From Paludibacteraceae bacterium (GTDB lineage: Bacteria; Bacteroidota; Bacteroidia; Bacteroidales; Paludibacteraceae), in NCBI GenBank assembly GCA_017450435.1, contig JAFSTO010000007.1, positions 1-39,305 on the forward strand: a stretch of 39,305 bases of DNA, in the 5' to 3' direction. Both the position numbers and the translations under genes were made by a program. The stretch's first letter is position 1. Each line of letters begins with the position of its first letter. The notes below the pieces were generated by a model. It made no database searches. It saw only the letters and a list, made by a program, of their open reading frames with translations, and was not told where the DNA came from. Positions 1-22,914 of the stretch are shown here, one piece after another.

Positions 1-28
1 AAAAAAAGAAAGCGCAGATAGACATAGG

Positions 29-119
29 AGAGACGGTAAGCGCCACCCAAAACAAAACCACCCTAATTACCGTCTGACACCCCACTTCACGATGTTCGCG
101 GGGACCCCGTTGTCTCTAC
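29..119 (-). repeat. REP palindrome 1 (interrupted), GTAG on the minus strand
   Basis: The left arm AGAGACGGTAA is at 29-39. The right arm starts at 67 (TTACCGTCT), is broken after 75 by an inserted block, and resumes with CTAC at 116-119, which is GTAG on the minus strand. The same arms, uninterrupted, occur at 952-1002. A GTAG tetranucleotide next to a palindrome is the hallmark of REP elements recognised by RAYT transposases in other bacteria. Applying that rule here is inference. Confidence 0.75.
72..115. other. 36-nt insertion with flanking GTCT duplication inside REP 1
   Basis: Compared with the intact copy at 991-1002, this copy carries 36 extra nt (76-111) flanked by GTCT at 72-75 and 112-115. 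The insert has a short GC-rich inverted repeat, CGGGG and CCCCG around 99-109. This could be a small insertion with target duplication, or an ancestral segment deleted between the two GTCT repeats in the other copy. The sequence alone cannot separate the two. Confidence 0.6.
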
Positions 120-187
120 ACGCGGACGGACAACGAAACAAGTGGATTAGGATAGAAACACTTTATATAAATCTGATTTGAACAAAC

Positions 188-850
188 ATGGATTTTAACC
201 CGCAATTATATAACGAGAAATACAGAATACCAACCACAAGACGACAAAACAAGAATTATAGCAAAGGACATTATCATGTAGTGGTATGTACAAAAAACAA
301 GAAATGTTATTTCGGAGAAATATATAACGACGAAATACACTATACTCCAATAGGAGAATATGCCAAGCAATGTATTGAAAACCTGACACATTTCTACCCG
401 TATGCAGAGGTACAAACATACCAAGTAATGCCTAACCACATACACCTTCTCATATCACTTTCGGAAGAAGCCCCTTGCGCAGCACACCCTACACACATAG
501 AGACACAAGACGACAAAGAACAATGTAAAAGGGAATTTTCGACACAAAACATTAGACAACAACACGAAGAGGTATGTCAGATGGTAATTGGAGAGACACA
601 GGGCGATATACCTACCAAATCTCACAACAGAAAAGGAGGATTGTCAATTTTAATAGGAGGATTGAAAAGGGCAATAACAAAATGGACAAAAAAACACGAT
701 ATTGATTTTGCTTGGCAGGAGAGGTTTTATGATACCATCATACGCGATGCAACACAATATAGTGAAACAGTGTATTACATTAATAGCAATGTTGCCAAAT
801 GGTCAGATGATGACATGAACGTGTCCGCCACACGTAGCACAACGATTTGA
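188..850 (+). CDS. REP-associated tyrosine transposase (RAYT, IS200/IS605 TnpA-like)
   Basis: Predicted single-strand DNA endonuclease/transposase of the Y1 HUH superfamily (Transposase_17/Y1_Tnp). The HUH metal-binding motif is clear: residues 82-88 read PNHIHLL, with His84 and His86. A family-like block GLSILIGGLKRAITKW follows at 151-166, then WQERFYDTIIRD at 176-187. Candidate catalytic tyrosines are Tyr191, Tyr196 and Tyr197 in the last helix, before a characteristic Trp205. The region between the HUH motif and the C-terminal block (about 93-150) is long, polar and variable. No tnpB or second transposase gene is present. The gene is flanked by direct repeats containing GTAG-headed palindromes, the arrangement expected of RAYTs, which are domesticated relatives of IS200/IS605 thought to act on REP elements. 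The ATG at 188 is the natural start. The reading frame is intact, so the enzyme may be active. An ordinary IS200-like transposase is the alternative, but the REP context favours RAYT. Confidence 0.85.
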   Translation: MDFNPQLYNEKYRIPTTRRQNKNYSKGHYHVVVCTKNKKCYFGEIYNDEIHYTPIGEYAKQCIENLTHFYPYAEVQTYQVMPNHIHLLISLSEEAPCAAHPTHIETQDDKEQCKREFSTQNIRQQHEEVCQMVIGETQGDIPTKSHNRKGGLSILIGGLKRAITKWTKKHDIDFAWQERFYDTIIRDATQYSETVYYINSNVAKWSDDDMNVSATRSTTI

Positions 851-860
851 AACACCACCG

Positions 861-888
861 ACAACGACGCACCGACAACGACGCACCG
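861..888. repeat. 14-bp tandem duplication after the RAYT stop codon
   Basis: ACAACGACGCACCG occurs twice head to tail (861-874 and 875-888), 10 nt after the stop codon, and runs straight into REP 2. It is one of several short tandem repeats at gene ends in this window. Confidence 0.85.
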
Positions 889-894
889 CAACGT

Positions 895-922
895 GTAGAG
901 ACGGTATTATTTTACCGTCTCT
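895..922 (+). repeat. REP palindrome 2, GTAG on the plus strand
   Basis: GTAG at 895-898 overlaps a perfect 10-bp inverted repeat: AGAGACGGTA at 897-906 and TACCGTCTCT at 913-922, with a 6-nt loop. A C and an A-tract follow. The same hairpin in reverse orientation, with the A-tract conserved, lies at 19531-19558. With REP 3 it forms an inverted pair (BIME-like). Confidence 0.85.
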
Positions 923-923
923 C

Positions 924-1024
924 AAAAAAAGAAAGCGCAGATAGACATAGGAGAGACGGTAAGCGCCACCCAAAACAAAACCACCCTAATTACCGTCTCT
1001 ACACGCGGACGGACAACGAAACAA
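924..1024. repeat. Long direct repeat, right copy, flanking the RAYT gene
   Basis: This 101-nt copy corresponds to 1-141 without the 40-nt block. It contains REP 3 and ends in the same segment (CGCGGACGGACAACGAAACAA split over 1004-1024). The 5' flank of the following secreted-protein gene (start at 1082) therefore lies directly next to the mobile unit. Confidence 0.9.
952..1002 (-). repeat. REP palindrome 3, long-loop, GTAG on the minus strand
   Basis: Perfect 11-bp arms AGAGACGGTAA (952-962) and TTACCGTCTCT (990-1000) enclose a 27-nt loop. CTAC at 999-1002 gives GTAG on the minus strand, so REP 2 and REP 3 face each other. Confidence 0.8.
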
Positions 1025-1081: not shown

Positions 1082-4000
1082 ATGAAATACTTACATTTAT
1101 CTACCATCAGAAGTATTTTTAACAATGTCATTAAGACTAACTATCGCCAGTCCGTGCTATGCGCCGCCACTACGCTTATGCTCCTATGCTTCGGAGCGGG
1201 TGAGATGTGGGGATATACATTTTACCTTTATACGGGTCAAATAAGCGGATGGGATTCTAGTTGTAATATTCGTGTATGGGATGGAAACAGCAATCTATCA
1301 CCCACAAATTTGGGTAGCAACTGGTACTCGTTCACAACGACTAACGAGGGAACATTCTACTTTAAACGAGTTGATCCAACTAACGAAAATAACACTTACG
1401 ATGAATTTTCATGCACTATTAACTCCACATATAATTGTGCAATCGTTGTTGATTGGAAAAAAGGAGGTTATCCATGTATTGTGGGAGAAAGTTGGACAGG
1501 ATGGAGCAGTAGCGCAGCTTTGGGATGGGATGATTATAACCCGATGACTTTTAATTCATCCACCAAAACATTTACTCTTACATCACCATACACTAGCGGC
1601 ACACCTAAAATAAAAGTAAAAATTGGTAGAGGTAATGCGGATTGGACAGGGGCAACAGGAACCTATTCGGCTGTAACACAAGCGAATGTTGTCAGCAATT
1701 CAAACGATGGAGATGGTAATTTAGTTTTTACCCCTGCCAAAGCAGGTAATATAACCATTTCTTATAGTCCTTCAACAAATAAAATTAGTCTCACATGTGC
1801 AGCTCCGACTATTACATTAAATGACGAAGGTGGGAGTGGCGGCTCCGGTACGCAAAATACTTACTACGGCGAGAGTTCGGTAAATGTATCTATACCGACA
1901 AAAACAGGATATAATTTTGCCGGTTACTATACAGCCGCCAGCGGTGGGACGCAGATTATCAATGCTTCCGGTGCTTGGTTGGCAAGCAAATCCGGCTATA
2001 CCTCAAGCGCAACTAAATGGGAAGTTCGTGCAGATGCTGAACTTCATGCTCAATGGACAGAAAAAACCTACAATGTGACAGTCGCATCCAATAACTACTC
2101 CTATGGTACTATCATGAGCGGTCAGACTACCAATCAAACGGTTAGTGCCAAGCATTTTACCTCCGACTGCTCCATTACGGCAGAGGCGAAAACGGGCTAT
2201 CGTTTCACGGGTTGGACTTATTCGGGGAGCGTGGTCATTGCCGATGCAACTGCTACCTCGACAACCATTAAAGCCACAGCTACCGGTGCTACGGTTACCG
2301 CTAACTTTGAGGCTATACCTGCCGGACAATTGGATATAGTGGCAGGCGCTAACGGACAGGTGAAGAAAGCATCCGGCTCTTGGGGAAGTTCAGCAAGTTA
2401 TACCGACATCACCGCTGCCGGAAACTATAATATCTATGCGCAAGCGAATGCCGGCTACCATTTTGTCAACTGGACGAAATCAGGTGATGGTTCTATTACC
2501 ACCAATGCAGCAAACGGTGTTTACGCCATGACTGCTAACGGAACAGCTACCGTTACTGCCAATTTCGCAGAGGACCTTAGAACCCTGACACCGACCGTAA
2601 GTTACGACCATGGTTCATCAACTTATACAGCAACCAGTGCTAATCAGTTAGGTGTAGCAACCACTTCGGTTCTGACGGCTTCTGCTCCTAATGCGGCGCA
2701 CTACACCTTTGCCGGCTGGGAGCTGACCAACCTGACTGTTACCAACGGAACAGCTGCTACAGATTTGTCCATTACCGTGAAGGTGACCGACCCCGCACAA
2801 ACCTGCTCGGCTGTAGCTAAATACAACGAGGTACTGACCACACCGTGGACAATCAAAGGCGGAACTGGCTTGACGGAGAATGACTGGACTACTGCATATA
2901 ACATGGTTAAAAAAACTGGGTATTCCACGGAGAGTGTAGCATATTATACATTCCATGTAAGTGCCACCAACACAGGGGACAGTCAAAAGGATAGTTATGG
3001 ATTCAAACTACTACAAGGTGAGACTTGGTATGGAGCTTCTGCTGATGGCGATTCTTATTGGGTTAGTGCCACAACATCTAATATAGAAATAAGTTCATCA
3101 TATGATAAGAACATCCAGATTCGAGCCAATGTAGCAGGCGATTATGAGATAAAGGTTGATTATACCACCCCTGCCTCGCCGAAAGTTTCCGTCACCTTCC
3201 CAACCTCCTACACCGTGAACTATGGTGTGTCGCCGGCAGGGGCTGCCGATGCTCCTACTAACGACAAGTCACTGAGCAACGGCGCGTTGGTACTCAGCGG
3301 CACAAGCGTTACCTTCACCAAAGACGCAACGCCGAACCCCGGCTACACATGGGGCCACTGGGAGAAAGGCGGCGCGAATGTGGGTACAAGCAACACCTAT
3401 ACCACCACCATTGACGCGGCTACCACCATAACTGCCGTTTATACGGAAGACATGCACACTGTAACACTTGCCGCAGATGATGCTTTCGGAACTGCCCACG
3501 TAACAGGAGGTGCCGCCACAAGCGGCGAGGCTGGTATAGCAACGGCTTTGAATATCACAGCCGAACCCACAGCCGGCAACCGCTTCATCCGTTGGACGAA
3601 AACCGGCGGAACAGGTACAGCCACCTTTGGTGACGATCGCTCAGCAAACACTACTGTCACCGTTACCGACGGCGATGTGACTATCACAGCAGAAATGGGC
3701 TCCAACTGGGTTATTGGAGGTGATGCTTCAATCTTCGGCAATTGGGACATGGGGCTTGCTCATAGTTTTGGTAACTTCGCCACGATAGGCGGAGATAACG
3801 TCGGATACGTGGATATTGCCCTTCCGGCTAATACCACCTACGAGGTGAAGGTCTATAACCACGAAGGTAGCAAGTGGTGGGGTTATACTACAGAAAGCGT
3901 GCAGACAGTGAACTACACTACCCACAATAACGAAGCACTTGTCTTTGGTATGGGTGACGACTATAAAAACCTCCAAATCATTACCGCCGGAGCCGGCACC

Positions 4001-7000
4001 TATAGATTCACTTGGAACGAGACAGAAAAGGCACTCACGGTTACCTTCCCGACCTCCTACACCGTTACGTTCGGTTCGAGCACGGGAGGCACAGAGGTAA
4101 CAGCGAGTGGCAGCACATCCGGCAGTATCACCACAGGTCAGTACGTGGCAGCCGGCGAGGACGTGACATTCACGCAAACCCCTGCTACCGGTTATACCTT
4201 CTCCGAGTGGAACACGGCTTCGGTTGGCAGCGGCTCTCAGTTGAGTACTGAAACATCTTACACGCTGAGTGGTATTAGTGCTGATAAAACCGTCTATGCG
4301 AAATATAATACTATCCCCTACACCGTCTCTATAGAATATAAGTGCGGCGGGACGACCCTACAGACAAGCAGAACTATCTACAATGCTAACGTAGAGGGTG
4401 TGGACCTTGCGGCGCCCGACATCATCGGTTATTCGTTCACCGGCTGGACAGCTGCAGACGGCATACGATATGGTGCAAGCTACGCTGGCGGAACAACAAC
4501 CAGCAGCGAAGCCGCCACCACTCTCTACGCCACACAAAACGCAGCTATCACAGCTAACTACGCCGAGCATAAGGCAGTGTATTTCAAGAACACCCTCGGC
4601 TGGAGCGAAGTGTATGTGACGTATGATGCGTATTGGGATGCGAATTTAGGTACCGGAAATAACGACAAAGTTTACCACAAGATGACACGCATCGGCGAAA
4701 CGGATATCTACTACGACTATATACCTTCAGGTTATCTTGCTGATATCGAGGCATGGAAATATTACATTGCATTTAACAGCGAGCAGTTAGGCAACCTGAG
4801 CGAATCTGATGGTAACTACAACAATTTCGACAAAGGTCAGGTCATCTTCCGTAAGGACTTTGACAGCAACGCCACGATGTTCGTCCCGCGTACAGAAGGC
4901 TCGTCATATACTAAGAATGGTGCCACCTACGTGTGCTCGAACTACACAACGGTAGATACGGACTCACGCTACGCAGATAGCTACTGGATGGTGTATAACT
5001 CCACCGAGTCGGGTTATAAACTGAGTATCAACAAAACAACAGACCCATGGACTGGCGTTAACTTCGACGCCACCACAGCCGGAATGTCGGAGTTTACTGC
5101 CACTATTGAACTCGCTGCAGGTCAGACTTACTCTTTCTGTGTTGACAAAGTTACTTCAGTTAACACCAACAACCATTGGTTTGCCAATAACATTACTGTC
5201 ACTAAAGACAACTGCACCAACGTGGAGATGTACTCCAACCCGAGCGATAACTGTCATATCGCAACCACTGCAGCCGGCGACTACACGTTCACCCTCACCT
5301 GCGGCAACGGCCGCCTGTTCCTCAGCGTTGACTACCCGCTGTCGGTTGGCGACTACCGTCTTGTCTATACCCACGATGGCAAGAGCAAGCCGTCAGACGT
5401 CATCCGCGCTAACCCCGGAACGGAGAGCATTGTGTCGTTCTATATAAAGAAGTGGTATGATAAAAGCACCAGCAGCGGCGCATACACCGACCAGAGTCTG
5501 AAGCTGCAACGCTGTACCGCTGTCAGTCCGGAGTCATGGGGCGGAACAAGTAATGAGTGGGATGTAACGTCCTTGCTCAACAACGAAACCCTTCAAGACA
5601 CCTCGGGTGTGTATAACTTCAAAGTGACGCAACCTGCAGGCGGCGGTACGCCTACCGTCACCTACGAAGGCGGCTACACCGGCAACTTCTATATCCGCAC
5701 CGACGCTGCCGACGGAGGCTGGAACGCCTATAAGGACTTTGCAGACAATAGGATGACCTACTCGGAGTACTCAGAGAAGAACAGCAACTATTCGCATTAC
5801 TTCATGAAGTACGTGACAGCGGGAAAGAACATCAAGTTCTGCATCGCCAACGACTACAGCCAGTGTATCTCCGACACTCTGGAGGGCGACACCTACACCG
5901 GCGATTCACAGACTCTGCCTGTCAATGCCAACATCCGCTACACATGGAACCACGAGACGAACGCCATCACTCGTGCATACATCGGAGCCTCCGCAGCAAG
6001 CGACTTCCTCCGTCTGCACGGCAACGCAAGCAACAAGCTTTACACCGCCGCAACGGGTGACACCTACAACACCGCTGTGAAGTTCGCCGATGATGAGAAC
6101 TGGATTTACCACGTTGACGTGTTTGCCGTGCCCAACACCCGCATCAAACTGACGGCGAACTGGAACGGTCACACGCAGTACTTCAAAGGCGCGGCGCCTA
6201 TTGACGACTTCGACGATGCAGACGATGATGTTCTTAACGCTCTCGCCCCCTACCTCATCGGTGGCTCAGGCTCTACCCGCTTTAAGATGCGCGTCATTTA
6301 CGACTTCAAGACCAACCGTCTGACCACAGCATGGTTGCCTGACGGCGAGAACATAACCACGGATACCGAAGTCAGCGCCGACCTGCTCGTCATACGTGAC
6401 GCCGACTCAAAGAACGCACCGAGCCTCTTCACACTGTCGGCAAGCGGTAAGGTTAGCCTGATAGGACATATAGTGTTCGCCCTTGAAATGAATCCCGCCA
6501 GCATCTTCGACGACTCCCACACCACCTACCGCAACGGCTTGCGCAGTCAGCTCTTCCAGATTTGTCTGCCGTATGACGTAAACGTGAACGACATCTACGG
6601 TCTGCCGGGCTACGGCACAAAGTGGGTGATACAGACCTACTCCGGCGAGATGCGCGCCAAGCTGAGCTGGACACCGTATATCAAAGATTTCTGGGGCACC
6701 GTTCGTCTCTCCGACGGCGGTATCATCAAAGCCGGCACGGGCTTCGTCATCTCGCATAACCTGCAGTATGAGGACTTCCGCAACGCCGGAGGAACAATAG
6801 ACAAGCTATACCTCTACTTCCCGTCAGTGGACAAAGACGGCGGTTACACCATCAACCAGCCCGCTGCCTACGGCACAACGACATACGACGAGCTCAAGTG
6901 CAACCACACCGGTCGCGAGAGTATCGACTCCGACTGGCGTCTGACAGGTCTGCCGGGGTTCTATCCCGCTGTGGTATCAACAGCCGACCCCGCAAGCGGC

Positions 7001-7939
7001 GTACAAGGCGTGCGCGATGGAGAAGGGATAGAGTATAACCACGTCACCAACGGAACCACCCTCAACTGGCTATACGAGTGGGGCGGCGCGGCAGGTAACT
7101 ACATAGTGAAGAACCCGAAGAGCTACGCCCTCAACCCGACCAGCGCGTACTTCATACAGTATCATGGCAGTGTGACATGGGTGAGCGGTTCGTATACTTA
7201 CAGCACTACCCCTGCCAGCGTAGCGGCACATCGTGCACCGCTGTCGGACTACACCAACGCACAAGGCGAATACATATATAGCAACGAGTATGTACTGACG
7301 ATGAGCGACGAGGACGGCAAACTGACCGACCAGGCATACGTAGTGGTGGAGCCTGATGCTACACAGGGTTACACCCGCAACGAGGATCTTGGCAAGTCGT
7401 TCGCACAGAACGCTGCACAGATATACACCCTCTCTGAGGGCTACCAACTGGCAGCTAACACCCTGCCCGACACGGTGACGGCAGTGAAGGTTTGCTTAGA
7501 CATGCCGTCTGAAGGCGAATACACCATCCGTCTGGAGAAAGGCGGTCAGTTCAACCACGCTGTGTTAGAGGACCTCTACACTATGACGAGCACTAACCTC
7601 AACACGTCCGAGGGCTACACCTTCGCGGCAGAAGCCGGCAGGACAGAAGACCGCTTTGTGCTCCGCTTCGCTCCACAACAGCCCGGCACGGCAACCGACA
7701 CAGAAACGGCCACGGCAGGCACGCTGCGCGTGACGGTAATAGACGGACAGATAATAGTGGAGAACGGCGCTAAGACAGGCAACACCGCCGGCGACATGGT
7801 TTATCTGTACGACGCCGCAGGCAAGGCTATCTACTCTACCCCGTTCCGCGAGGGCATGACCTTACCTGCCCCGTCGGCAGCAGGAGTATATCTCGTCCGC
7901 CTCGGCTCCGAGAGCAGGAGAATAGTAGTGGGGAAATAA
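1082..7939 (+). CDS. Large secreted InlB-repeat multidomain protein with type IX-like C-terminal end
   Basis: A 2285-residue predicted secreted protein, probably cell-surface or released. Residues 1-44 look like a signal peptide with a long n-region and a hydrophobic core around 25-40. Residues ~255-325 contain a Listeria-Bacteroides (InlB B) repeat (GYNFAGYYTAASGG, then AQWTEK). Several divergent InlB-type repeats follow to ~1160, recognisable by GYxFxxWxxxG and TVTANF or AVYTE endings at ~330-410, 415-497, 700-790, 793-872, 985-1075 and 1080-1160. Between them are beta-rich modules of unknown type (e.g. ~872-990). Residues ~1164-1260 (VYFKNTLGWSEVYVTYDAYW) resemble a starch-binding CBM26-like module, which is an inference. 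The last ~75 residues end in a beta-sandwich tail with VYLYDAAGKAIY and GVYLVRLG, then a basic end, as in type IX secretion sorting domains. No catalytic domain is evident, so adhesin or glycan binding is the best guess. It is flanked upstream by the RAYT/REP unit and downstream by a terminator. I see no promoter matching the Bacteroidota consensus in the short leader. Confidence 0.8.
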   Translation: MKYLHLSTIRSIFNNVIKTNYRQSVLCAATTLMLLCFGAGEMWGYTFYLYTGQISGWDSSCNIRVWDGNSNLSPTNLGSNWYSFTTTNEGTFYFKRVDPTNENNTYDEFSCTINSTYNCAIVVDWKKGGYPCIVGESWTGWSSSAALGWDDYNPMTFNSSTKTFTLTSPYTSGTPKIKVKIGRGNADWTGATGTYSAVTQANVVSNSNDGDGNLVFTPAKAGNITISYSPSTNKISLTCAAPTITLNDEGGSGGSGTQNTYYGESSVNVSIPTKTGYNFAGYYTAASGGTQIINASGAWLASKSGYTSSATKWEVRADAELHAQWTEKTYNVTVASNNYSYGTIMSGQTTNQTVSAKHFTSDCSITAEAKTGYRFTGWTYSGSVVIADATATSTTIKATATGATVTANFEAIPAGQLDIVAGANGQVKKASGSWGSSASYTDITAAGNYNIYAQANAGYHFVNWTKSGDGSITTNAANGVYAMTANGTATVTANFAEDLRTLTPTVSYDHGSSTYTATSANQLGVATTSVLTASAPNAAHYTFAGWELTNLTVTNGTAATDLSITVKVTDPAQTCSAVAKYNEVLTTPWTIKGGTGLTENDWTTAYNMVKKTGYSTESVAYYTFHVSATNTGDSQKDSYGFKLLQGETWYGASADGDSYWVSATTSNIEISSSYDKNIQIRANVAGDYEIKVDYTTPASPKVSVTFPTSYTVNYGVSPAGAADAPTNDKSLSNGALVLSGTSVTFTKDATPNPGYTWGHWEKGGANVGTSNTYTTTIDAATTITAVYTEDMHTVTLAADDAFGTAHVTGGAATSGEAGIATALNITAEPTAGNRFIRWTKTGGTGTATFGDDRSANTTVTVTDGDVTITAEMGSNWVIGGDASIFGNWDMGLAHSFGNFATIGGDNVGYVDIALPANTTYEVKVYNHEGSKWWGYTTESVQTVNYTTHNNEALVFGMGDDYKNLQIITAGAGTYRFTWNETEKALTVTFPTSYTVTFGSSTGGTEVTASGSTSGSITTGQYVAAGEDVTFTQTPATGYTFSEWNTASVGSGSQLSTETSYTLSGISADKTVYAKYNTIPYTVSIEYKCGGTTLQTSRTIYNANVEGVDLAAPDIIGYSFTGWTAADGIRYGASYAGGTTTSSEAATTLYATQNAAITANYAEHKAVYFKNTLGWSEVYVTYDAYWDANLGTGNNDKVYHKMTRIGETDIYYDYIPSGYLADIEAWKYYIAFNSEQLGNLSESDGNYNNFDKGQVIFRKDFDSNATMFVPRTEGSSYTKNGATYVCSNYTTVDTDSRYADSYWMVYNSTESGYKLSINKTTDPWTGVNFDATTAGMSEFTATIELAAGQTYSFCVDKVTSVNTNNHWFANNITVTKDNCTNVEMYSNPSDNCHIATTAAGDYTFTLTCGNGRLFLSVDYPLSVGDYRLVYTHDGKSKPSDVIRANPGTESIVSFYIKKWYDKSTSSGAYTDQSLKLQRCTAVSPESWGGTSNEWDVTSLLNNETLQDTSGVYNFKVTQPAGGGTPTVTYEGGYTGNFYIRTDAADGGWNAYKDFADNRMTYSEYSEKNSNYSHYFMKYVTAGKNIKFCIANDYSQCISDTLEGDTYTGDSQTLPVNANIRYTWNHETNAITRAYIGASAASDFLRLHGNASNKLYTAATGDTYNTAVKFADDENWIYHVDVFAVPNTRIKLTANWNGHTQYFKGAAPIDDFDDADDDVLNALAPYLIGGSGSTRFKMRVIYDFKTNRLTTAWLPDGENITTDTEVSADLLVIRDADSKNAPSLFTLSASGKVSLIGHIVFALEMNPASIFDDSHTTYRNGLRSQLFQICLPYDVNVNDIYGLPGYGTKWVIQTYSGEMRAKLSWTPYIKDFWGTVRLSDGGIIKAGTGFVISHNLQYEDFRNAGGTIDKLYLYFPSVDKDGGYTINQPAAYGTTTYDELKCNHTGRESIDSDWRLTGLPGFYPAVVSTADPASGVQGVRDGEGIEYNHVTNGTTLNWLYEWGGAAGNYIVKNPKSYALNPTSAYFIQYHGSVTWVSGSYTYSTTPASVAAHRAPLSDYTNAQGEYIYSNEYVLTMSDEDGKLTDQAYVVVEPDATQGYTRNEDLGKSFAQNAAQIYTLSEGYQLAANTLPDTVTAVKVCLDMPSEGEYTIRLEKGGQFNHAVLEDLYTMTSTNLNTSEGYTFAAEAGRTEDRFVLRFAPQQPGTATDTETATAGTLRVTVIDGQIIVENGAKTGNTAGDMVYLYDAAGKAIYSTPFREGMTLPAPSAAGVYLVRLGSESRRIVVGK

Positions 7940-19472: not shown

Positions 19473-19530
19473 TGTTGAGAAAAGGATGCTTTTATTGTCG
19501 TTGTTTGGGGACCTCAGGTGCTTTTTTTTG

Positions 19531-19558
19531 AGAGACGGTAAAGTAATACCGTCTCTAC
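19531..19558 (-). repeat. REP palindrome 4, upstream of meaB
   Basis: AGAGACGGTA (19531-19540) and TACCGTCTCT (19547-19556) form a perfect 10-bp stem with a 6-nt loop. CTAC at 19555-19558 is GTAG on the minus strand. Read on the minus strand it matches REP 2 including the following A-tract. It lies between the DUF1573 stop and the meaB start. Confidence 0.85.
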
Positions 19559-22836: not shown

Positions 22837-22887
22837 GGTTCTATATCGTTGTTTTTTGATTGTCTTAAGTTGATTGTCTTAAGTTTG

Positions 22888-22914
22888 AGAGACGGTAAAA
22901 AATACCGTCTCTAC
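22888..22914 (-). repeat. REP palindrome 5, in the rel leader
   Basis: AGAGACGGTA (22888-22897) and TACCGTCTCT (22903-22912) form a perfect 10-bp stem with a 5-nt loop; CTAC at 22911-22914 is GTAG on the minus strand. It lies about 50 nt upstream of the rel start codon. Confidence 0.85.

Follow-up and report, generated by a model that had tools for sequence, protein, structure and literature searches.

Is the transposase gene at the left end of this Paludibacteraceae contig one half of a REP/RAYT pair, with the GTAG-headed palindromes around it as the other half? We addressed this question in the window, by which we mean the whole 39,305-nucleotide stretch of DNA that was analysed (contig C23 of a draft genome of 2.65 Mb in 76 contigs), in the rest of the genome, and in relatives across the genus, family and phylum. 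In our view the locus is very probably a REPtron, in which a single-copy RAYT would mobilize its own REP family and for which subclass 2.4 of Quentin et al. (2018; PMC6006769) is the best fit.

The features of the locus are listed in Table 1. The initial annotation described the RAYT gene as bracketed by 101-nt direct repeats. This holds for the downstream copy, which is contiguous (924-1024, 101 nt), but the upstream copy consists of 1-75 and 112-141, split by 36 nt (76-111) from a second repeat module; the paired segments (1-75 = 924-998 and 112-141 = 995-1024) are each 100% identical. Modules related to the second module are present at loci L006, L045 and L052. The contig ends within the repeat, at the start of the window and 187 nt upstream of the RAYT gene, and two other contigs of the same genome, C14 and C45, both terminate in a sequence 100% identical to positions 1-132 of the window, so that the true left neighbour of the RAYT gene is not settled. 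C14, which matches the downstream flank over 125 nt (99.2%), may be that neighbour, or C14, C45 and the window may all hold copies of one inverted-pair element.

Table 1. Features of the RAYT locus and of the dispersed REPs in the window.
Feature	Position	Strand	Details
Linker or flank	1..30		Common to 924-953; upstream copy cut by contig end; 1-75 = 924-998, 100%; copies on C14 and C45
Long-form REP hairpin	31..75	-	Stem AGACGGTAA/TTACCGTCT; 27-nt interior; foot without direct GTAG
Second mosaic module	76..119	-	GTAGAGACAACGGGGTCCCCGCGAACATCGTGAAGTGGGGTGTC on minus strand; GTAG at 116-119; the 76-111 part splits the upstream repeat
RAYT gene (P0001)	188..850	+	TnpA_REP, predicted Y1 HUH transposase; 220 aa; HUH residues 84-86
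Decayed flanking composite	558..589	+	Second-module end and long-REP start within the RAYT gene; frame open
Short-form REP	895..923	+	GTAG 895-898, hairpin 899-920, CTC; left half of downstream inverted pair
Inverted-pair linker	924..953		100% identical to 1-30
Long-form REP	954..1002	-	Hairpin 954-998; minus-strand GTAG at 999-1002; right half of inverted pair
Flank	1003..1024		Recurs at 120-141; right end of direct repeat 112-141 = 995-1024
Dispersed short-form REP	19530..19558	-	Hairpin 19533-19554; between two gene calls
Dispersed short-form REP	22887..22914	-	Hairpin 22890-22910; between a RelA/SpoT-type gene and an amidase gene

The open reading frame of the transposase, P0001, is intact and carries the HUH motif PNHIHLL, as first annotated. 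Both of its histidines (H84 and H86) and a downstream tyrosine, Y197, are kept in 26 of 26 aligned proteins; this alignment was drawn from 38 loci, our own included, and of the 12 loci left out one was a duplicate and the others were truncated, frameshifted or, in some cases, redundant. P0001 matches PF01797 above the cut-off (25.4 versus 23 bits) and is the sole such match in the genome, and a search of the same draft assembly with P0001 likewise gives one match. The best NCBIfam match is NF047646 (REP_Tyr_transpos), with a score of 35.4 bits (E = 9e-9) that lies under the 80-bit cut-off; all 26 aligned proteins match this family at E <= 1e-3. Among solved structures, the 26-protein profile is closest to TnpArep (4er8; E = 2.1e-8), with Y197 aligned to the catalytic tyrosine of that enzyme. 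On its sequence P0001 is thus classed as a predicted RAYT (TnpA_REP), a class 2 Y1 transposase.

The same profile alignment places W94, Q95, E100, H101 and R104 of 4er8, which the text of Quentin et al. (PMC6006769) discusses as the GTAG-recognition region of the E. coli enzyme, opposite W176, Q177, D182, T183 and R186 of P0001. The tryptophan is present in 26 of the 26 proteins, the glutamine in 25, the aspartate in 24 (two have glutamate) and the arginine in 23. The aspartate differs from the glutamate at E. coli position 100 and is the residue stated for subclasses 2.5 and 2.7 in the text of PMC6006769. The stretch between the HUH and tyrosine motifs is long in P0001, at 111 residues compared with 67-69 in three relatives of the same genus, and ranges from 67 to 118 (median 98) over the 26 proteins. 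By sequence alignment, the insertion in P0001 lies between the HUH strand and the LSILIGGLKRAITKW stretch, the latter being read here as the probable helix αC.

The palindrome itself is strongly over-represented: the window has 13 occurrences of AGACGGTA where 1.17 would be expected, and none of 100 shuffles reaches 13. Five complete AGACGGTA...TACCGTCT hairpins were located in the window, as the initial annotation had counted. Genome-wide the hairpin is found at 50 places and the reversed-pattern control at none; a few of these, at the ends of contigs, may be the same place entered twice. With the directional pattern GTAGAGACN{5,35}GTCTCTC there are 49 matches and none for the control. Since the 50 sites are on many contigs, an artefact of contig ends is ruled out as the source of the palindromes. 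From 38 short hairpins with full flanks we derived a REP unit of ~50 nt, consisting of a leader of ~20 nt resembling ACCTTGTTTCGCCCACGT, GTAG, AGACGGTA, a T-rich loop of T(5-6), TACCGTCT and CTCAA. In these hairpins information above background spans about -25 to +7 and is weak toward the ends. In the long form the interior measures 27-29 nt and its edges (GCGCCAC... and ...CCCCAAT) are mostly conserved; the second module ends, beside the hairpin, in GTGTC rather than GTAG. The copies marked by GTAG at 895-898 and by CTAC at 999-1002 are inverted relative to each other, with GTAG on the outer side, which bears out the earlier description of these two copies as BIME-like and resembles a REPIN.

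Inspection of the hairpin feet supports a polarity of the palindrome, but not that GTAG stands at the same side in every copy. In the window GTAG lies directly at the foot of four of the five copies. The exception is hairpin 31-75, which has GGAG on one side and GACACC on the other; on the GACACC side the next GTAG (116-119, minus strand) lies 40 nt beyond the hairpin. Among the 38 short hairpins GTAG is at a foot in 29 (one foot in 27, both feet in two) and at neither in nine. In 26 of the 27 single-foot hairpins the T-rich loop is on the GTAG strand, and in 26 of 27 CT adjoins the stem, continuing as CTCAA in 17. We do note that the conservation of CT may be plain stem conservation, because CT pairs with the AG of GTAG. 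The defining marks of GTAG REPs, GT[AG]G at the 5' foot and many extragenic copies, are both present.

Across the family and beyond, 31 of 35 other RAYT loci have a perfect hairpin, 9 bp or longer, with GT[AG]G at its foot; this set leaves out our own locus, L046 (on the same contig as L136) and L048. Such hairpins were found in only three of 175 control sequences, obtained by shuffling in 2-base blocks, and the 15 loci with weaker Y1 matches, mostly long frames, have none (Fisher p 1.7e-9 for RAYT versus weaker loci). The four RAYT loci with no qualifying hairpin are L105, L110, L123 and L127; at two of the 31, L117 and L119, the sole hairpin is GTAGGGGC and lies more than 1 kb from the gene. 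The exact eight bases GTAGAGAC, comprising the foot and the lower stem, are found at 25 of the 35 loci. GTAG, which the initial annotation took as the shared unit, is too small, the shared block usually being GTAGAGAC. At most of the RAYT loci examined the lower stem AGAC/GTCT is constant and the upper stem varies. Half-stem and protein similarity are weakly correlated (Mantel r 0.26, p 0.03, 23 loci, with half-stems chosen by hand).

The association is also evident from counts in whole genomes. In 150 genomes of the family, our own included, the pattern GTAGAGACN{3,33}GTCTCT gives 1964 matches versus 80 for the control, counted on both strands so that a symmetric palindrome counts twice. All 26 genomes whose closest P0001 relative scores E <= 1e-20 have at least four matches, as do 53 of 68 with any P0001 match at E <= 1e-5 and 20 of 82 with none, and the median counts for these three groups are 24, 11 and 0. 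None of 10,000 within-genus permutations reaches the observed RAYT-linked difference in match counts. Fifteen RAYT-positive genomes of the family have fewer than four matches, and seven of the 150 have at least ten matches and no P0001 match at E <= 1e-5. A profile re-search of these seven genomes for a RAYT found none in G010, G076, G092 and G133, only a 348-aa frame in G091 and G128, and in G135 a 348-aa frame together with a 44-residue RAYT match interrupted by a stop.

Within the genus, five of 178 genomes (our own, G311, G296, G204 and G287) contain a close RAYT, scoring at least 60 bits to P0001. At least ten GTAGAGAC matches are found in four of these five and in four of the other 173 (Fisher p 8e-6); the fifth close-RAYT genome, G311, has GTAGAGCC at its RAYT. 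The remaining four of the eight genomes with at least ten matches (G239, G196, G200 and G298) contain only long-frame Y1 genes of 337-461 aa. The exact AGACGGTA hairpin exceeds two copies only in our own genome (50), G296 (28) and G297 (11), and in the 149 other genomes of the family there is at most one per genome. The RAYT of G296 is 52% identical to P0001, and the stem sequence is common to both. Two or fewer copies are thus present in 175 of 177 other genomes of the genus, but G297 has 11 hairpins and no close RAYT was found in it. Neither absence of the palindrome from the rest of the genome nor equal abundance in relatives lacking the transposase, which the initial annotation had named as observations against the pairing, was encountered: there are 50 sites here and few in relatives. 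The pairing is strongly supported, the RAYT being single, the palindromes dispersed and extragenic, and the stem following the RAYT lineage in the genus with one exception.

The REP-rich genomes in which no close RAYT was detected (G239, G297, G076 and G092) are what one would expect if the REPs had been spread by another Y1 enzyme, or were relics, and the RAYT gene were merely a host for their insertion. We regard this as unlikely. The within-genus RAYT-REP association persists, the stem is common to the RAYT lineage of G296, and a draft assembly can miss a repeat-flanked gene; the contig end just upstream of our own RAYT gene is a case in point. The other Y1 genes were rejected as drivers of the REPs, as no GTRG-footed hairpin was found up to 1.5 kb to either side of the 15 weaker P0001-match loci in the genus (frames of 331-458 aa at 13 loci, 116 aa at L140 and 266 aa at L153).

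A single-copy RAYT with its own REPs remains the preferred reading, and a further trace of the association is found inside the gene. The composite that second module and long REP make up in the 5' flank, read on the reverse strand, aligns to 558-589, between the HUH and tyrosine motifs, with a score reached by none of 1000 dinucleotide shuffles and none of 208 tile-strands of the remaining window, tiles over other REP or AGACGGTA places being excluded; under softer penalties six of 1000 shuffles reach the score. Relatives contain intact in-frame REPs within their RAYT genes, for example at L103, L114 and L121, and the protein segments CRDVARNVST and CRDGVHTVST of relatives are translated REPs, GTAGAGACGTTGCGCGCAACGTCTCTAC and GTAGAGACGGTGTGCACACCGTCTCTAC. 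According to the text of PMC6006769, internal REPs are unique to subclass 2.4, though some 2.8 genes have one. The in-frame REP between the HUH and tyrosine motifs that characterizes subclass 2.4 is thus present, decayed in the P0001 gene and intact in relatives.

Other properties given for subclass 2.4 in the text of PMC6006769 also resemble those observed here: its distribution in Bacteroidetes and Cyanobacteria, GTAG-footed hairpins flanking the gene, the double-foot GTAG...CTAC form (seen in relatives) and a variable HUH-tyrosine insertion. That insertion is described as lying between β3 and αC, and here its placement is by sequence alignment; the HUH-tyrosine distance has a median of 88 in the text for 2.4 and of 98 here. 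There are also differences. Subclass 2.4 is described with three consecutive G-C pairs at the bottom of the stem, whereas the lower stem here is AGAC/GTCT; and its double foot, common at the loci of relatives, is found in only two of 38 hairpins in our genome, where most (27 of 38) are polar with a single foot. Membership of the mostly Bacteroidetes subclass 2.6, with atypical structures, would fit the phylum, and 2.6 genes likewise have genome-dispersed repeats; according to the same text, however, the 2.6 repeats lack GT[AG]G (29 of 38 have GTAG here), the 2.6 insertion lies between αC and β4 (in P0001 it precedes the putative αC), and the region of the guide-reading W, Q and R, which are kept here, is unconserved in 2.6. 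With the GTAG foot present and the insertion placed before αC we rejected this assignment, which we consider very unlikely.

We then considered the position of the palindromes relative to genes, a count for which the initial annotation had called. Of 61 distinct sites, 60 are outside gene calls; for comparison, 1220 positions drawn at random from the same loci are coding in 71% of cases. The gene calls are those of our own codon-usage script, not of a published gene finder. Except in the window, sites no more than 300 nt from a locus end were discarded, and 19 of the 49 directional-pattern sites, for which no separate locus was taken, contribute only in so far as loci of other sites include them. 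Fifty sites have two called neighbours, which are unidirectional at 30, convergent at 13 and divergent at seven. Single strands of the REPs fold as expected, with the exception of the 106-nt composite 20-125, which folds no better than shuffles (z -0.9), and an Rfam search of the window at the gathering threshold gave no match to a known RNA family. On another reading the host would retain the palindromes simply as intrinsic terminators or as hairpins for RNA processing, with the RAYT nearby by chance. This would suit their extragenic, mostly unidirectional or convergent positions and their good folding, but it is extremely improbable given a sequence conserved beyond the structure (with a GTAG foot, and a leader outside the stem), the seven divergent sites, the scarcity of the hairpin in the rest of the genus and the occurrence of the same foot beside 25 of the 35 other RAYT genes but not at the 15 weaker Y1 loci.

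Taking the system as a REPtron, we compared it with those already described. E. coli TnpA_REP and its REP-BIMEs (4er8; group 2) share the HUH-Y1 core, the W/Q/R guide residues, the 5'-foot GTAG and inverted pairs, but here the stem is perfect and without a bulge, its sequence is different and the HUH-tyrosine stretch is long (111 residues). The Group 3 REPtrons of Stenotrophomonas and Marinomonas, as described in the text of Corneloup et al. (2021; PMC8266576), have perfect-palindrome GTAG REPs, as here, and cleavage at CT; their palindrome stands apart from GTAG (by two bases in Marinomonas), whereas here pairing is possible between the AG of GTAG and the CT on the far side of the stem. The inverted doublets, examined here in the RAYT-adjacent pair and in the C14 and C45 copies, and the single-copy RAYT recall the REPINs described in the text of Bertels and Rainey (2011; PMC3116915).

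The initial annotation took GTAG in a Bacteroidales element to suggest a conserved recognition rule. The fact is correct but not new: the text of Quentin et al. (2018; PMC6006769) reports GT[AG]G-footed REPs beside subclass 2.4 genes as abundant in Bacteroidetes and Cyanobacteria. The text of Di Nocera et al. (2013; PMC3733652) gives GTAG repeats for Proteobacteria, Cyanobacteria, Chloroflexi and the PVC group and names Bacteroidetes for CGTC repeats only; nothing on the Bacteroidetes phylum was found in the accessible text of Nunvar et al. (2010; PMC2817692) or of Bertels and Rainey (2011; PMC3116915). REP counts for three Bacteroidota genomes are given in the text of the RepRanger paper (PMC12306157). 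The GTAGAGAC block was not found in the literature text, though it may be visible in figures or supplements; a literature search on GTAGAGAC gave nothing relevant by title among the matches listed, and one on GTAGAGACG with 'cyanobacter' gave no match. GTAG REPs in Bacteroidales are thus already published, and the eight-base GTAGAGAC block is an addition beyond the published text that we found.

The block extends well beyond the family. Among 395 genomes sampled evenly across the phylum, and counted by eye for the REP pattern only, at least ten GTAGAGACN{3,33}GTCTCT matches are found in 29 genomes from 13 families, the top control count being 8. Thirteen plasmid records match the REP of locus L113, two of them over the entire hairpin at 100%; judged by genus name (one lineage was checked), all 13 are cyanobacterial. 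The REP of L122 matches 23 plasmid records from cyanobacterial genera and from Persicobacter and Parabacteroides. Plasmid searches with P0001 and one relative found no cyanobacterial RAYT, so the link to Cyanobacteria is a REP match only. The search with the relative gave three RAYT matches, of which two were opened: the Spirosoma plasmid has one GTAGAGACAAGGCATGCCTTGTCTCTAC palindrome, containing GTAGAGAC, directly after the stop codon of its RAYT, and the Leptolinea (Chloroflexota) plasmid has no GTAGAGAC palindrome at the gene.

For the three enzymes treated in the text of PMC8266576 the hairpin is processed single-stranded, GTAG matters, the cut is made at CT (in one also at CA) beside the structure, and A3G4 of GTAG are proposed to select CT. 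Because most of the residues concerned and the GTAG foot are found here too, we infer the same chemistry. By analogy, P0001 would bind the REP hairpin as a single strand and read the GTAG foot via W176, Q177, D182 and R186, and Y197 would cut at the CT adjoining the stem, as in the E. coli, Stenotrophomonas and Marinomonas enzymes. Cleavage would allow REPs and inverted REP pairs to be copied or moved into intergenic DNA, and so mobilized, while the RAYT gene would stay single and retain a decayed REP between its catalytic motifs. In the Bacteroidota REP the part that is usually constant is GTAGAGAC, the foot with the lower stem, and the upper stem differs by lineage.

A more speculative extension, which we offer as a tentative possibility, is that one Bacteroidota/Cyanobacteria RAYT lineage reads the eight-base GTAGAGAC as a whole, with the scissile CT lying in the stem and pairing with the guide AG and with the upper stem serving as a lineage tag. 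In the E. coli system the REP strand is processed and the inverse strand is not, whereas the double-foot forms here carry guide and CT on both strands, both of which might be substrates. How a RAYT discriminates its own REPs from others is not settled, and this phylum provides a natural experiment, as many of its RAYTs have a common foot and lower stem with differing upper stems, sometimes within one genus. A split of the REP into a constant module for cleavage and a variable one for identity thereby becomes open to direct test in vitro, in a phylum remote from the proteobacterial systems studied to date.

Several stem types occur alongside a single RAYT, the REP-associated Y1 transposase gene, in genome G000, where four sister hairpins carry an identical foot beneath an upper stem that differs. 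The RAYT gene itself contains a decayed REP composite which was absent from the initial annotation, and the REPtron (the RAYT with its REP family) is adjoined downstream by a 2285-residue protein with InlB B-repeat-type domains.

Coordinates and stem sequences of the features described
Feature	Position	Sequence
Sister hairpins, G000	C15:82856; C21:8971; C43:3419; C45:13089	
Sister hairpin stem, example		GTAGAGACGCTC..GAGCGTCTCTC
Sister hairpin stem, other cases		GTAGAGACGGTG..CACCGTCTCTC
Decayed REP composite	window 558-589	
Downstream protein	window 1082-7939	

Upstream of some REPs (loci L062, L012 and L037) the REP leader, near ACCTTGTTTCGCCCACGTGT, is repeated in tandem. Among the loci examined ACCTTGTTTCGCC was found at 13 places, in ten of which GTAGAGAC follows within the next 45 nt. 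A different intergenic repeat, of type CCAAGTACCAAGTGACCAAGT, is present at L002, L006, L039, L045 and L068; across the loci examined, CCAAGTACCAAGT was found at 12 places.

A search for RAYT relatives found no close RAYT in the REP-rich genomes G239 and G297 (same genus) or G076 and G092 (same family). Weaker Y1 matches from the genus (L140-L154), with frames of 331-458 residues in 13 of the 15, had no GTRG-footed hairpins within the stretch examined around each gene, and resemble the REP-free subclasses 2.1/2.3 when compared by description only.

In plasmid records, two Bacteroidota REPs (loci L113 and L122) matched cyanobacterial plasmids at up to 100%, and this sequence agreement suggests a REP family that is common to, or has been exchanged between, the two phyla.
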